Shown one piece after another: positions 5,518 to 20,314 of a DNA stretch of 64,000 nt. The position numbers and the translations under genes are program-made. The notes under the pieces are model-generated. The model had not been told where the DNA came from. It was given only the letters and a program-made list of their open reading frames with translations, and made no database searches. Positions within the stretch are counted from its first letter, which is position 1. Every line of letters begins with the position of its first letter. Origin of the DNA: Brachyspira hyodysenteriae ATCC 27164 (lineage in GTDB: Bacteria > Spirochaetota > Brachyspiria > Brachyspirales > Brachyspiraceae); NCBI RefSeq assembly GCF_001676785.2, contig NZ_CP015910.2, positions 2,418,001-2,482,000 of the forward strand, in the 5' to 3' direction.

Positions 5518-6807
5518 TTAGAAATTTTGTGATTGCAAATAATTATAAAGATTAATTATAATGCTGCCTATTTCTTTATAATCATCATTTTTTCCTATTA
5601 GAAAATAATAAACATATAAATAATCATCAGGTTCAGGATCATTCTTTCCTTCTCTAAGTTCATACTTTCCAAATATTTTTCTTATTTCATCTTTCATTTT
5701 TAATTCATTTAATTTATTTATAATATTACCGCTATTTGAAAATATGCTAAGGTAGCATGTTTTTTTGCTTATAAATAATTTAATTGTAAGATTATTATTT
5801 ATATTTATAATAATAGGTGTTGAATTTGCATCTTTGTTATTTATAATATTTCCTTTAAATATTTCCTCATCTAAATATCTGCAGTTTTCATTTTGCAAGC
5901 CATTATCTTTTAAATATTTGATAGTCTTATTAATAATTTCTATTTGTTCTTTTATAGGAGTTAATTCCAATTTTCTTGATTTAATCAAATAAGCAGCATC
6001 TGAAAACAATTTAGAGCATTCTTCAATATCATCTATATTATTAAATGATTCATAAATACCATTTTCATTAAAGAATTTTTCTATTACAGCATTTTTTTCC
6101 ATATTATTCTCCTCTATTTTATTATTGCTTATACTTTTTTCATTGTCTCTCATTTGAATTAATGCAGAATAAAGAGATATATATTTTTCATATTTTTTTA
6201 AAAAATCATACTTATTTAAAATATTATCATCTATAAAAGCGGAAATATCATTATGAGATAAATAACAAATTCTATTATTTTTTTCTAATTCAGATGTTAA
6301 TTTTTCGCTTAATGAATATGATTCTTTACCATATTTAGTTAAAAATACAATAAATAATTTATTTTCATTTACATATTTTTTTTCAAGTCTGTCATTATAA
6401 TAATCTTCTAATTGATATTCTAATTCATTTGCATTAATCTTATTTTCCAAAATAATTTCAAAATCATTATTATATATTAGTAAATCAATTCTTCTTCCAT
6501 TTTTTGTCATTATTTCTGTATCAACATTAATATCATTATTTATACTAATATCATTATGTTTTAATGTATCTTTAATAATGTAATTAGAAAAATCTTTTGC
6601 TAAATTAATTTCTATATCATTAAAAATAAAATCAATTTTTAGCATCTCTGCTAATAATTTACTATTATAAACTTCATTGTTAGACCATGGCTCTATAACA
6701 TTAAATTTAGGTATTCTTTTTTTTCTTTCTTCTTTAAAGTTATTGATTATATTATTTTTTTCTTTTAAAAAAAGATTAAATATATTTAAGAGTTCTGTAT
6801 TTTCCAA
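5518..6807 (-). CDS. PD-(D/E)XK nuclease superfamily protein
   Basis: 429 residues. The active-site residues are D108 ('RRIDLLIYN') and E121-N-K123 ('IILENKIN'), followed by 'LEYQLEDYYN' with the conserved Gln. This is the same architecture as the frameshifted gene at 112-1355. An upstream segment 'NVIEPWSNNEVYNSKLLAEML' (about 37-57) is the conserved N-terminal helix region of the PDDEXK_4-type family. There is no methyltransferase, helicase or specificity gene beside it, so it is not an ordinary restriction module. It lies 5 nt upstream of hemW on the same strand. Function unknown. Confidence 0.75.
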   Translation of the reverse strand: MENTELLNIFNLFLKEKNNIINNFKEERKKRIPKFNVIEPWSNNEVYNSKLLAEMLKIDFIFNDIEINLAKDFSNYIIKDTLKHNDISINNDINVDTEIMTKNGRRIDLLIYNNDFEIILENKINANELEYQLEDYYNDRLEKKYVNENKLFIVFLTKYGKESYSLSEKLTSELEKNNRICYLSHNDISAFIDDNILNKYDFLKKYEKYISLYSALIQMRDNEKSISNNKIEENNMEKNAVIEKFFNENGIYESFNNIDDIEECSKLFSDAAYLIKSRKLELTPIKEQIEIINKTIKYLKDNGLQNENCRYLDEEIFKGNIINNKDANSTPIIININNNLTIKLFISKKTCYLSIFSNSGNIINKLNELKMKDEIRKIFGKYELREGKNDPEPDDYLYVYYFLIGKNDDYKEIGSIIINLYNYLQSQNF

Positions 6808-6883: not shown

Positions 6884-7747
6884 CTATTTTAAGAAGTCTT
6901 TTAATGAACTGTATTTTTGAGAATGCATCTTTCTTAATGCTTTTTTTTCTATCTGTCTTATACGCTCTTTAGTGAAAGAGAACATCTCCCCTACTTCTTT
7001 AAGAGTCTTTCTTTCCTGATCTATTCCATATCTTGCATTAATGATTTGCTTTTCTATATCTGATAAACTTTCGATGGCTGTTTTTAATTCTTCCATAAGT
7101 TCTTTATTTATAGCAGTTTCTTCAACATTTTTGGAAGTTTTATCTTCTATCGTATCTATAAGCCTATCTTTCATACCATCATAATTATATTCGCCCTCAA
7201 GAGAAATATGTTCTGTACTCATAGACATAATATGAAGTATATCATTAGGGTCTTTATTTAAAATGGTTGCAAGTTCATTAACATCAGGAGTATATCCGCT
7301 TTTATAATAGTATTGATGCACGGCTCTTTCTAAATCTACAAAATCCATAGCTTTATTTAAAGGAAGTCTTATAAGTCTTGATTTTTCATTTATAGCCCTA
7401 AGAATGCTCTGCCTTATCCAATATACAGCATAGGATATAAAGTGATAGCCTTTATCCGGATCAAATCTGTCAGCTGCTATTATAAGGCCTAAATTTCCCT
7501 CACTTATTAAATCTTCTAATAAAAGTCCGCTGTTTTTATACTGTTTTGCTATTGTGATAACAAATCTCAAATTACTTCTAATTAGTTTGGATCTAGCTTC
7601 TGCATCCCCTTCTTTTAATCTCTTAGTGAGCTCTATTTCTTCTTCTCTAGTTAAAAGCTTTTCTTTTTTAGCATCTGCAAAATATAATGATATATTGTTC
7701 TGTTCTTCCGTATTAGTTCTTAACCTGCTTTCTGACATATTTCTCAT
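6884..7747 (-). CDS. RNA polymerase sigma-70 family factor (RpoD/RpoS/RpoH type)
   Basis: 287 residues. Region 1.2 (about 16-45) is followed by the region 2 signature 'LIRSNLRFVITIAKQYKNSG', 'EDLISEGNLGLI' and 'YAVYWIRQSILRAI' (the -10 recognition helix). A region 3 follows, and then region 4 ending in 'TKERIRQIEKKALRKM', the -35 helix-turn-helix. There is no region 1.1, so this is an alternative or reduced group 2/3 factor and not the large housekeeping RpoD. It is not an ECF factor because regions 1.2 and 3 are present. It lies 48 nt downstream of the receiver-LpxC gene on the same strand and may be co-transcribed with it. Confidence 0.88.
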   Translation of the reverse strand: MRNMSESRLRTNTEEQNNISLYFADAKKEKLLTREEEIELTKRLKEGDAEARSKLIRSNLRFVITIAKQYKNSGLLLEDLISEGNLGLIIAADRFDPDKGYHFISYAVYWIRQSILRAINEKSRLIRLPLNKAMDFVDLERAVHQYYYKSGYTPDVNELATILNKDPNDILHIMSMSTEHISLEGEYNYDGMKDRLIDTIEDKTSKNVEETAINKELMEELKTAIESLSDIEKQIINARYGIDQERKTLKEVGEMFSFTKERIRQIEKKALRKMHSQKYSSLKDFLK

Positions 7748-7795: not shown

Positions 7796-9100
7796 TTATA
7801 AATATCTATTTGCAAGATCATGTACAACGGAATGATTGAAAGAATGCGAAGACTTATTAGCGACAACTTTGCCTCTTATAGGTCTGGCTAATATATATAA
7901 ATCTCCAATTATATCCAAAATTTTATGCCTTACAAACTCATTATCAAAATGTAATTTAGTATTTATTACTTTTCCATCGCAAAGAAGTATATGGCTTCCT
8001 ATCATACCGCTTCCAGCCATACCCATTTTTTGGGCATAATCAATATTATCTATAGTATTAAATGATCTGGCTCTTCCTACCTCTTCTGTAAACTGATCAA
8101 AATTATTAAAATTATATGTATATTCCTGTACGCCTATACTTCCTGAAAAATCTATACGAAGACTTACCTCAAGTCCGTCATAAGGAGAAAGTATTATGTA
8201 AGTTTCATTATCATTAACATTTCCATAAGTTAAAGTCTGATCTATTACTATAGGCTCTATATAATCATCCTGCTCTACAAAACCAGCTTCTTTTAAAGCA
8301 TCGCAGAATACCAAAGCTGAACCATCAACATTAGGTACTTCTCCATCACATTTTACTATTAAATTAGTAATACCCATCATATGAAGTGCTGCTAAAAAAT
8401 GCTCTGTAGTTTTTATATATCTATTGCCTGATATTAATGCTGTAGAGTTTACTGCACCTGATTTATCTTTAGAAAGTATATTATTATGAGATAATTTTAT
8501 ATGAGTATTTGTATTAATATCTATAAATACTATACCTGTATTAACTTCTGCCGGAAGCAAAGTCAATGCAGTTTTTCTTCCTTCCATTAAAGCAAAGCCG
8601 CTTACTACTATACTTTTAGCTATTGTTCTCTGTTTAACTTTATAGCCTGTATTATGATGATGATGTGATTCACTTTCTTTATTTTCTACTAATTCTACTT
8701 TATCCGCATCTTCTTTGAATACATCTTCACAGCTTGAAAGAAGTTTTGATATACTAATAGGCTTCTCTAAAAAGTCATAAGCTCCCATTTTAGTAGCTCT
8801 TACAGCTGTTTCAACACCAGCATGTCCGCTCATCATTATTACAACAGTATTAGGATGTTTTTCTTTTATATTAGCAAGTATATCAAGCCCATCAACATCC
8901 GGAAGCCATACATCTAAAAATACTAAATTTACATTTTTACTATTAAGTATATCTTCAGCTTCTTTATAATTTTTTGCTATATCTACTCCATAGCCTTCAT
9001 CTTCTAAAATATTCTGACAGGTAGTCAGTATATCTTCTTCATCATCTATTATTAATATATTTTGTTTAGTTGTTACTGTCTGCATATTAAAATCTTCCAA
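7796..9100 (-). CDS. lpxC: Receiver domain fused to LpxC (UDP-3-O-acyl-GlcNAc deacetylase)
   Basis: 434 residues with two domains. Residues 12-130 are a CheY-like receiver: D19/D20, phosphoacceptor D63 in 'LVFLDVWLPDVDG', S91 and K113 ('LEKP'). A linker containing HHHH (146-149) leads to a complete LpxC at about 155-434: catalytic 'TTEH' (E233, zinc ligand H234), 'GEVPNVDGSA', 'HKILDIIGDLY' (H392, D396, the other zinc ligands) and the catalytic His in 'KSSHS' (H419). LpxC does the committed step of lipid A synthesis. The intact receiver suggests that phosphorylation by a histidine kinase tunes this step. ATG at 9100 was taken; ATG at 9085 would lose only the first five residues. Confidence 0.9.
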   Translation of the reverse strand: MEDFNMQTVTTKQNILIIDDEEDILTTCQNILEDEGYGVDIAKNYKEAEDILNSKNVNLVFLDVWLPDVDGLDILANIKEKHPNTVVIMMSGHAGVETAVRATKMGAYDFLEKPISISKLLSSCEDVFKEDADKVELVENKESESHHHHNTGYKVKQRTIAKSIVVSGFALMEGRKTALTLLPAEVNTGIVFIDINTNTHIKLSHNNILSKDKSGAVNSTALISGNRYIKTTEHFLAALHMMGITNLIVKCDGEVPNVDGSALVFCDALKEAGFVEQDDYIEPIVIDQTLTYGNVNDNETYIILSPYDGLEVSLRIDFSGSIGVQEYTYNFNNFDQFTEEVGRARSFNTIDNIDYAQKMGMAGSGMIGSHILLCDGKVINTKLHFDNEFVRHKILDIIGDLYILARPIRGKVVANKSSHSFNHSVVHDLANRYL

Positions 9101-15502: not shown

Positions 15503-16210
15503 TTATTTTAATTTTTCTATATATTTATCATATATAAATTTACATATTAATTTAGAATTAAATACTGATAAATCGACAAACTCTCCTATATACTCATTTC
15601 CTATTTTTTCAAGTATATTAATAGAAAAACTTATTTTATAAGAACTAATTGACATAGAAGCATTTTTTATAACATGCCCTACTTCTAAACTAGCTTCCTC
15701 AGGAGGCATAATAAATTTTAATCCTATAGGAGACATTTCTATTATCATACCATGAAGAATCTGCCTTACACCATCATGTCTAAATACCAATTTAAAATTA
15801 TCTAAATTATTTATCACTATATGTTTTAATTTCTTAGGCTTAACTCCAGCCTTATCTATTAAAACATTAAATCTATTCAAAAAATCTTTTTCATTGAATG
15901 GCTTTAATAAAAATCCTGAAACCCCAATTCTCATCATCTTAGTGAAGAACTCTCTGCTAGGATCAGCAACATGAACTATAACATGAACACCATGATATCT
16001 GTCATCTAAATAAATCTTTTCAAGTATACTCTCCATTTCCGTATCATTTTCCTCAACCTCTATAATAGCAATAGAAAAAGGAAGTTTACCAAACATACTT
16101 AAAATGTTGTTTTTATCCTTCACAGCCACAACTTCATATCCTGCCGTAATAAGAATACTGATAAAACTGTCCCTTATTTGTAAAGATGAATCATAAACTA
16201 ATACTCTCAT
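15503..16210 (-). CDS. Degenerate receiver domain with PilZ-like C-terminus
   Basis: 235 residues. Residues 1-118 fold like a CheY receiver ('VLVYDSS', 'GVSGFLLKPFN' with the conserved Lys), but the phosphoacceptor position is Glu51 ('IAIIEVEEND') and the usual second acidic residue of strand 1 is Ser. Phosphorylation is therefore doubtful. Residues 130-230 resemble PilZ: 'FRHDGVRQILHGMIIEMSPIGLKF' (about 145-168, shown here only as a guide) has the Arg-rich start and a D/E-x-S-x-x-G-like motif. A protein of this type would act as a cyclic-di-GMP effector. The PilZ call is moderate because the RxxxR motif is imperfect. Confidence 0.6.
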   Translation of the reverse strand: MRVLVYDSSLQIRDSFISILITAGYEVVAVKDKNNILSMFGKLPFSIAIIEVEENDTEMESILEKIYLDDRYHGVHVIVHVADPSREFFTKMMRIGVSGFLLKPFNEKDFLNRFNVLIDKAGVKPKKLKHIVINNLDNFKLVFRHDGVRQILHGMIIEMSPIGLKFIMPPEEASLEVGHVIKNASMSISSYKISFSINILEKIGNEYIGEFVDLSVFNSKLICKFIYDKYIEKLK

Positions 16211-17917: not shown

Positions 17918-20314
17918 ATGGAAGAGAGAAAATCTATAGACAGTTTTTTTTCAGATTTATCTATGGGACTGCTTTTTGCTGAAAACACAAATGAAATAGA
18001 CAGAGTAGTTGATTTATTCTTAGAAAAAACTTGTCAGTACTACGGTTTTGATTGCGGAGAAGTGTATTTTCCTAAAGGGGATTATCTTATACTTAGAGGA
18101 GTATACGGAATAGACAGATATTATGTATGTAAAGTTGATTTTCCAATATCTGCAAATCATTGTAAAGATGTATTGTATGAACAGAAAATTTTTATAGGAG
18201 ACAATATTAATCATACGAATATGGAAGTATTTTCAAACTATTCATCAATGTTTGTGCTTCCTATATTTTTCTATGCCCATCCTATTGGAGTTGTACTCTT
18301 TAGAAACAGAGAAAATAAAACAGAATTCTACAATTCTATAGTTGATGAAATAAAAAATGTTATAGGACACTTTGCTGTATATGCTAATAATGTACTTCAG
18401 AGCGTAACATATAAAGAAAGAGATAAACAATTAAAATTGCTTAGAGAATTATATTTGAAATTAAGCGAAGTTGATGATTTTGAAAACAATTTAAATCAAT
18501 TAGCAAATGATATTGCAAATATTTTCACAGCCAATAAAGCATTTATAAGGCTCAGAAGAGAAAATGGAGAATTATATACAAGATCTAGTTATGGTTTTCC
18601 TGACAATTTTGATTATTCAATATTTGAATATAATACATATATAAATGAATTTTGGGATAAAGGCATATTCTATATAAATAATGCAGCAAACAATAAATAT
18701 TATGAAAGATTCAAAGGCATTATAAATAGATCTGTACTATTCAATAGAATACCTGTGAAAAATGATTGCATAGGCTATATAATGGTTATAGATAAAATAC
18801 CAGATGCTGTAAATCCGCTTGGAGATTTTGATTTAAATGACCTTAATTTATTCAATCCGCTTTTAGCTAATATAGCGAGTAGAATTTCAGAGCATTACAA
18901 TATAGTAGAATTAAGCAAGGCAAATGAAAAAAACACAAGGCATATGTCCCGTTTGAATACACTATATGATATAAGTAATATTTTATTAGAACGTTCAAAA
19001 ACAGAAGACATATTATTTTTACTCTTAACAATTGCTACAATAGGAGATGTATTTGCTTTTAATAGAGCTTTTGCTTTTCTTTATGATAAAGAATTCAATG
19101 TATTTAGAGGAAGAATGTGTGTTGCTCCTACAAATGCTCAAGAAGCTGCTATGATATGGAATAATATGCAAAAGCTAGATAAATATGCCCTTAGAGAAAA
19201 ATTAATGCTTTCCTTTGATAAAAGGAGTATGGAAGATTCTTGGGATTTAAATCAGAAGTTTTTAAACACTGTTATACCAAACAATGAAAATTGTAAATTG
19301 TTCTTCGATGTATTTAATAATAAAAACAGCATCAATATAACAAATACAAATACAGAAGAAGTAGAACAAATAAAACAATATACTGATATATTCGGATATT
19401 GTCCTTTTGCTATTATACCTATAATGAATGCTACAAATTGTATAGGTATGGTAGTTGTTGATAATTCTTACAATGGAAAACCAATACCGGAAGATGATTT
19501 GGATTATTTAAAAATGTTCGGAAGACAGGCCGCTGTTGCTTTGGAATATTCTTATCTTTATAATGAAATAGAAAAAAATAATAATGCATTAAAAGCTGCT
19601 GAAAAAAGTTTATTAGATTTAAAAAGCTTGGCTATAATAGGAGAAATGAGTTCTTCTATGGCTCATAATCTTAGGAATTTCATAGTACCTATTGCTGGAT
19701 TTGCTAACAGGCTTGTAAAGGTAAGTAAAGAGGAAAATATCAAAAACTATGCTCAAATAATAGCTAATGAAGTTGAGAATTTAGAAAATTATTTGAGAAG
19801 AAATTTATCATTTGCTAAAAGTATTAATCTGGAAGTGGACAATATAAAAATAGACGATATGATTAAATACCTCACTATTTTAGCAAAAGAATATATTAAA
19901 AAAAGCGGCAAAAATATTAAATTCTATGCCATTAAAATCACTAAAGAAGATGTAGTAAAATGGGATTATGATAGAATGAATGAAGTTATATTCAATCTCA
20001 TAATCAATGCTATAGATGCTATAAATGATGGCGATGAAGATTCAATTATAAGCGTAATATTTGATGATAATGCATACAGAGAATCAATAATAGATATTAT
20101 AGTAGAAAACACTAATTCATATATAGAACCTGAATTAGCTGAAAAAGTATTTACTCCATTTTTTACTACAAAAAGTCATGGAGTTGGTATAGGACTAGCC
20201 ATTTCCAAAAGAATAGTAGAAGCTCATGGCGGAAGTATGGTAATAAAAAGTGTTAATAGCCCATCAAAAATAACAACTTTTTTTGTTTCTATACCTGTTA
20301 ATTTAAATAATTAA
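17918..20314 (+). CDS. Cytosolic sensor histidine kinase with multiple GAF domains
   Basis: 798 residues without transmembrane helices. Three GAF-like sensor regions are apparent at about 20-155, 185-330 and 350-550, then a dimerisation/phosphoacceptor helix with H583 in 'SSSMAHNLRNFIVPIAG', and a HATPase domain: N box 'NEVIFNLIINAIDAI', F box 'VFTPFFTTKSHG', G box 'VGIGLAISKRIVEAHGG'. The H-box reads HNLRN where most kinases have HEIRN/HELRT. It would sense an intracellular ligand or redox state and autophosphorylate. No response regulator is adjacent, so its partner is elsewhere. AGGAAG precedes the start. It probably shares a transcript with the hypothetical gene downstream. Confidence 0.88.
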   Translation: MEERKSIDSFFSDLSMGLLFAENTNEIDRVVDLFLEKTCQYYGFDCGEVYFPKGDYLILRGVYGIDRYYVCKVDFPISANHCKDVLYEQKIFIGDNINHTNMEVFSNYSSMFVLPIFFYAHPIGVVLFRNRENKTEFYNSIVDEIKNVIGHFAVYANNVLQSVTYKERDKQLKLLRELYLKLSEVDDFENNLNQLANDIANIFTANKAFIRLRRENGELYTRSSYGFPDNFDYSIFEYNTYINEFWDKGIFYINNAANNKYYERFKGIINRSVLFNRIPVKNDCIGYIMVIDKIPDAVNPLGDFDLNDLNLFNPLLANIASRISEHYNIVELSKANEKNTRHMSRLNTLYDISNILLERSKTEDILFLLLTIATIGDVFAFNRAFAFLYDKEFNVFRGRMCVAPTNAQEAAMIWNNMQKLDKYALREKLMLSFDKRSMEDSWDLNQKFLNTVIPNNENCKLFFDVFNNKNSINITNTNTEEVEQIKQYTDIFGYCPFAIIPIMNATNCIGMVVVDNSYNGKPIPEDDLDYLKMFGRQAAVALEYSYLYNEIEKNNNALKAAEKSLLDLKSLAIIGEMSSSMAHNLRNFIVPIAGFANRLVKVSKEENIKNYAQIIANEVENLENYLRRNLSFAKSINLEVDNIKIDDMIKYLTILAKEYIKKSGKNIKFYAIKITKEDVVKWDYDRMNEVIFNLIINAIDAINDGDEDSIISVIFDDNAYRESIIDIIVENTNSYIEPELAEKVFTPFFTTKSHGVGIGLAISKRIVEAHGGSMVIKSVNSPSKITTFFVSIPVNLNN

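Follow-up and report, generated by a model that had tools for sequence, protein, structure and literature searches.

LpxC catalyzes the committed step of lipid A synthesis, and in the Brachyspira hyodysenteriae genome studied here it is encoded in one frame with the receiver domain of a response regulator. The locus raises the question of whether a two-component system could act on the enzyme itself, and through which kinase. The window (the whole stretch of 64,000 nucleotides that was analyzed) contains the gene on its minus strand, and it is the sole LpxC gene in the 3.07 Mb genome. The best explanation of our results is that, in its product, the enzyme of the lipid A committed step itself serves as the output domain of a response regulator. 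We favor, with a probability of about 0.58, a rewired NtrYX system in which LpxC is the direct target of the kinase NtrY, perhaps so that LPS and phospholipid are kept in balance.

The mechanically called open reading frame (7796-9100, minus strand) starts at a TTG at 9100 and has 434 codons. A Shine-Dalgarno-like GGAAG (9098-9094) lies 8 nt ahead of an ATG at 9085, and several relatives in the alignment begin at the equivalent position (MQT), so ATG 9085 is probably the true start. D63, in the TTG numbering used throughout, would therefore become D58. The features of the locus are:

7796..9085, minus strand: receiver-LpxC fusion gene, probable extent (from ATG 9085, GGAAG and the relatives starting at MQT)
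8738..9061, minus strand: receiver (REC) of NtrX type, residues 14-121 (PF00072 E 1.7e-30; NF051870 115 bits; tree 98/94)
8912..8914, minus strand: codon of D63 (D58 from ATG 9085), the predicted phospho-acceptor, invariant in 32/32 aligned fusions
8762..8764, minus strand: codon of K113, the conserved receiver lysine, invariant in 32/32
8645..8725, minus strand: interdomain linker, about residues 126-152 (dN/dS 0.57; pLDDT below 50 at 125-145)
7814..8635, minus strand: LpxC deacetylase domain, residues 156-429 (PF03331 E 1.6e-68; TIGR00325 over cut-off; Foldseek E 3e-30)
6884..7747, minus strand: RpoD/RpoS-like sigma-70 factor gene, 48 nt downstream of the fusion gene

Receiver, linker and LpxC domains of the fusion protein

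As the original prediction had it, receiver and LpxC share one reading frame, and the Pfam matches to Response_reg and LpxC are both far above their curated cut-offs. The LpxC half scored 231.6 bits with PF03331 (cut-off 27) and 195.9 bits with the NCBIfam lpxC equivalog TIGR00325 (cut-off 187.25). Residues E233/H234, H392/K393, D396, D400 and H419 align with the motifs TVEH, HKILDAIGD and SGH of LpxC proteins in the PDB and are invariant among the 32 aligned fusions. The predicted set of zinc and catalytic residues is thus present in full, E233, H234, H392, D396, D400 and H419 standing for E78, H79, H238, D242, D246 and H265 of the E. coli enzyme. The domain is complete, and deacetylase activity is predicted from its sequence. 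No FabZ domain was found in the protein by Pfam, and it is not an LpxC-FabZ bifunctional enzyme. Two further observations concern LpxC sequences. In the fusions of Brachyspirae, the active-site motif ARTFG reads ARSFN at residues 344-348 (T191 to S and G193 to N in E. coli numbering), while ARTFG is canonical in the other class with fusions; the change may matter for the binding of hydroxamate inhibitors. Additionally, one spirochaete family (G146, G175, G186, G192 and G198) carries an LpxC-like gene that has diverged strongly (40-68 bits, frames of 350-440 aa) beside a normal LpxC gene; in G186 the divergent gene is the only LpxC found.

The fused LpxCs stop 14-21 residues past the catalytic histidine (here 15 after H419, ending DLANRYL), and the hydrophobic C-terminal degron (LAXXXXXAVLA) is not present in the C-terminus of receiver-LpxC. 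The fused enzymes thus have no counterpart of the long E. coli tail that bears the degron (PMC12444477), and the receiver might instead set LpxC abundance, its phosphorylation exposing or hiding the protein for proteolysis in place of the degron. Many non-enteric LpxCs also have neither degron nor receiver (PMC12444477), so the missing degron alone says little; we found no link to an adaptor or protease, and we regard control through abundance as unlikely.

In the receiver half, the phospho-site is complete, with the acidic pair D19 and D20, the phospho-acceptor D63, the switch residue S91 and the lysine K113; D63 and K113 lie where they had been predicted. All five are invariant among the 32 aligned fusions, which come from deeply split lineages. 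Between Brachyspira species, the linker had a dN/dS of 0.57, against 0.076 in the receiver and 0.051 in LpxC, and by these ratios the receiver is under strong purifying selection. The linker is variable in both length and sequence, fast-evolving and predicted to be disordered. An AlphaFold model built with 16 near-identical alignment rows reached a pLDDT of only 43.7, and the model with 52 rows was used (pLDDT 82.7). Both folds are confident in it, residues 125-145 of the linker are disordered, and Foldseek aligned its LpxC part to experimental LpxC structures (E 3e-30); no reliable relative placement of the two domains can be read from it. Taken together, the conservation, the dN/dS values and the model with its disordered linker describe the receiver as intact, under selection and flexibly tethered.

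These features bear on two explanations in which phosphorylation would count for little. If the fusion were neutral and the receiver a passive passenger, its dN/dS should not lie near that of the enzyme and far below that of the linker; the invariant phospho-site and the co-occurring loss of ntrX described below also speak against this explanation, which we consider very improbable. Alternatively, the receiver could be a docking or dimerization module that recruits LpxC to a membrane kinase or to itself, with phosphorylation minor or absent. Docking-only receivers often lose their phospho-site, whereas here the whole site (D19, D20, D63, S91 and K113) is kept across the fusions. On the other hand, the linker, which is long, variable and predicted to be disordered, makes tight allosteric coupling not obvious, and LpxC of Neisseria is reported to be localized to the membrane by another protein (PMC12444477). 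Docking is unlikely in our judgment, and direct phospho-control through the receiver is the reading that we carry forward.

Distribution of the fusion and ancestry of its receiver

Receiver and LpxC were found in one frame in 31/31 genomes of Brachyspira's class, the frame of G003 being truncated within LpxC where its contig stops. In a sample of 296 genomes of the phylum, 110 of which had a detectable LpxC, fusions outside this class were found only in a second spirochaete class. All four sampled genomes of that class have the two parts, fused in frame in three (G040, G052 and G062). In the fourth, the metagenome bin G070, receiver and LpxC lie in adjacent frames, split at an undetermined base (N) in the linker. 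A fault of assembly or gene calling could be suspected from that genome, but every Brachyspira genome, single-contig assemblies among them, has the same open frame, and so do two further genera and other families, which leaves such a fault a negligible chance: the fusion is real and ancient. Separate genes in related genomes and loss of D63 in homologs had both been named as results that would speak against the original prediction; neither was seen, since the parts are fused throughout the class and D63 is kept in all 32 aligned fusions.

The remaining spirochaete LpxCs have shorter frames, mostly of about 300 aa, with no fused receiver in the loci that were read. In the LpxC tree, the fused LpxCs fall on one side of a branch with support of 100/99, opposite 32 stand-alone LpxCs. 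All fused receivers likewise form one group in the receiver tree, with weak support (76/72). A single fusion event is the simplest reading of these sequences, with two events or a transfer as the alternatives. The chromosomal survey covered spirochaete genomes and does not imply that the fusion is confined to them. Among plasmid records, none covered 80% of the receiver-LpxC query, and viral contigs yielded stand-alone LpxC only. No described receiver-LpxC fusion was found in the open-licence literature. Such proteins surely have automatically named entries in sequence databases already; the apparent novelty lies in the conservation analysis and in the connection to NtrY and psd.

The best NCBIfam response-regulator model for the receiver is that of NtrX (NF051870, 115 bits, against 80 for NtrC). 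Fused receivers carry the motif DxWLP/MPxxDG, which is common to most spirochaete NtrX receivers and absent from NtrC. In a tree built without most long outgroups, where the NtrX receivers were those of ntrY-adjacent NtrX proteins, the fused receivers cluster with those of NtrX (98/94, 100% of bootstraps) and the NtrC receivers of the same genomes fall outside. Constraining the fused receivers with NtrC cost 9.7 log-likelihood units and was not rejected at 5% (p-AU 0.097), so the affinity to NtrX is strong but not absolute. NtrC of the same genome, considered as the source of the receiver, is disfavored by tree and motif. In the fused receivers, helix alpha-1, which contacts the kinase, shows no greater similarity to NtrX than to NtrC. 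The receiver was thus probably taken from NtrX. The protein is not itself an NtrX, because Pfam finds only Response_reg and LpxC in it; the sigma-54 AAA+ and DNA-binding domains are missing.

The original prediction had also seen a possible envelope-control unit in the fusion and the sigma factor gene that follows it. The distance of 48 nt is correct, while support for the unit ends with Brachyspira and the sister genus nearest to it, the only genomes in which the two genes stay linked. In the family's third genus (L030), the sister family (L081/L082) and the second fusion class, the fusion lacks the sigma gene as a neighbor. The sigma gene scored below every specific NCBIfam cut-off shown and passed only that of the broad sigma70-ECF superfamily. 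We rejected it as a core partner, the linkage not being conserved; it is probably outside the core system and a lineage-specific addition at most. After the sigma gene, a divergent PDDEXK_4 nuclease gene (window 5518-6807) adjoins in only some Brachyspira species.

An orphan NtrY kinase and its gene context

The original prediction had suggested a search for a kinase, and a good candidate is an orphan NtrY. Five proteins of the Brachyspira genome match HisKA. The partner of one is a PhoB-like regulator and that of another is NtrC; three have no adjacent regulator. The NtrY-type kinase at G000:C1:2594812-2596599 is an orphan with the NtrY H-box WREAAIKVAHEIKNPLMPI and a HAMP domain. In the kinase tree, the orphan NtrYs of the fusion lineages group with NtrX-paired NtrYs (96/93), away from NtrB.

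In non-fusion spirochaetes, a full-length ntrX follows ntrY directly in 11/12 loci with a readable downstream side (L148, which ends at a contig edge, was left out). The exception is G063 (L147), a genome 78% complete in which LpxC was not found. No fusion genome examined has ntrX after ntrY, and ntrY and the fusion gene are never adjacent in the genomes examined. Seven fusion genomes (G000, G019, G026, G027, G028, G052 and G062) have one strong sigma-54 activator gene each, which is NtrC, so NtrX is absent from them and not merely moved. The larger fusion genomes G029, G030, G040 and G070 have many NtrC-family regulators, and the absence of NtrX is less clear-cut there.

Control of LpxC by phosphorylation could also come from another kinase, or from several; candidates would be the GAF-domain kinase of the window or the NUDIX kinase described below. 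The three Brachyspira kinases without an adjacent regulator leave room for this, and the alpha-1 contact helix gives no clear pointer to NtrY. Against it, the nearest relatives of the fused receiver are NtrX receivers, and in G062 and G052 we found only NtrY, an NtrB-type kinase, whose obvious partner is NtrC, and a third, probably CheA-like, kinase. We consider another kinase improbable and retain NtrY as the presumed partner of the fusion.

Several other two-component proteins were noted. A histidine kinase with a GAF domain (window 17918-20314) has a degenerate H-box, AHNLRNFIVPI, and no adjacent response regulator. A NUDIX hydrolase domain is fused to a histidine kinase (HisKA, HATPase), also with no adjacent regulator, at G000:C1:2756.6k-2758.2k (L088:697-2247). 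A degenerate receiver-like protein with an extra C-terminal half (window 15503-16210) has a weak Pfam Response_reg match below the cut-off. In the Brachyspira species read and the sister genus, a small receiver-like protein (L089:667-1035, plus strand, G000:C1 about 2594447-2594815; also L164:7208-7606) lies tail-to-tail with ntrY, overlapping it by a few bases; it has no phospho-Asp, FNPN replacing LDxxxP, and could be a decoy or adaptor that binds NtrY. G062, which has very few two-component proteins, encodes a protein with receiver, SpoIIE phosphatase and HATPase domains (L216, G062:C1:2404374), and L215 in G052 looks like its ortholog in the receiver tree.

In 4/4 genomes of the second class, psd, the gene for phosphatidylserine decarboxylase (by Pfam), is directly followed by the orphan ntrY. 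The two genes are neighbors in 0/67 non-fusion genomes, where they are on different contigs or far apart (a hand tally of genomes with the positions of both psd and the best NtrY match listed). Because the four genomes are related, this contrast reflects one or a few evolutionary events and not four independent ones. Through this pairing the kinase is tied to phospholipid synthesis and its presumed target belongs to LPS synthesis, a hint at what the kinase may sense. The listed Brachyspira genomes have no psd, and none is reported for the sister family; psd as a neighbor of ntrY in Brachyspira was rejected, and the phospholipid link cannot hold there in this form. Psd itself occurs in open frames of about 690-820 aa in many genomes of the groups f6, f17 and f31, which suggests a fusion with a large extra domain.

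Proposed control of LpxC and comparison with known systems

Direct phospho-control is a well-motivated inference, given the fusion, the retained D63 and an orphan NtrY as candidate kinase. Trees and gene context suggest that an NtrX receiver was fused ahead of LpxC, in the ancestor of the two spirochaete classes or in an event shared between them, and that the DNA-binding ntrX beside ntrY was lost, leaving ntrY an orphan. NtrY would then phosphorylate D63 (D58) of receiver-LpxC, and phosphorylation may alter the activity, oligomeric state, membrane location or turnover of LpxC through the flexible linker. In this manner, a membrane or envelope signal could set lipid A flux directly, faster than transcription. 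From the psd-ntrY pair of one class, the signal might be inner-membrane phospholipid status, with LPS and phospholipid synthesis kept in balance. For the sign of control there is an analogy: in two alphaproteobacteria, Rhodobacter sphaeroides and Caulobacter, the NtrYX system decreases transcription of lpxC (PMC12444477, PMC7240162), so a reasonable starting guess is that LpxC is restrained when the receiver is phosphorylated. The only target of one Desulfovibrio response regulator is lpxC (PMC3333781), and these precedents make LpxC plausible as a target.

The closest comparison is with NtrY-NtrX, which shares the NtrY-type membrane kinase (HAMP in G000; WREAAIKVAHEIKNPLMPI box), the NtrX-type receiver (DxWLPxxDGL) and, in alphaproteobacteria, LpxC as a downstream target (PMC12444477, PMC7240162). 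Here, however, nothing is left of the AAA+ and DNA-binding parts of NtrX, its receiver is fused to the enzyme itself, ntrY lies apart from the receiver gene, and the predicted control is post-translational and not transcriptional. With stand-alone LpxC (PF03331, TIGR00325) the protein shares the fold, the zinc ligands, the catalytic residues and the role of sole LpxC; it differs in its N-terminal receiver and linker, the short C-terminus without the FtsH degron of E. coli and, in Brachyspirae, ARSFN. The LpxC-FabZ fusion of Bacteroidetes, Chlorobi and Verrucomicrobia also joins LpxC in-frame to a second protein (PMC3087551), but FabZ is another enzyme, whereas the partner here is an N-terminal signaling domain. 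Post-translational control of LpxC that balances LPS and phospholipid, as predicted here, is exerted in E. coli by FtsH-LapB, yet the C-terminal degron of that system is absent. In response regulators with enzymatic outputs (CheB, HD-GYP, REC-SpoIIE) the receiver directly controls an enzyme, as it is predicted to do here. Known outputs of this kind act mainly in signaling or protein modification, and the output here is instead a committed biosynthetic enzyme.

The control of LpxC outside enterics is largely open (reviewed in PMC12444477). With the regulator built into the enzyme, a single protein and a single kinase suffice to put the question to a direct test, and the psd-ntrY pairing is an independent hint of a sensor for the balance of phospholipid and LPS. 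If our reading is true, a transcriptional two-component system has been turned into an enzyme switch and gives direct phospho-control of a committed envelope biosynthetic enzyme. It could then also provide a handle on LOS synthesis in Brachyspira, a genus with pig pathogens among its members.
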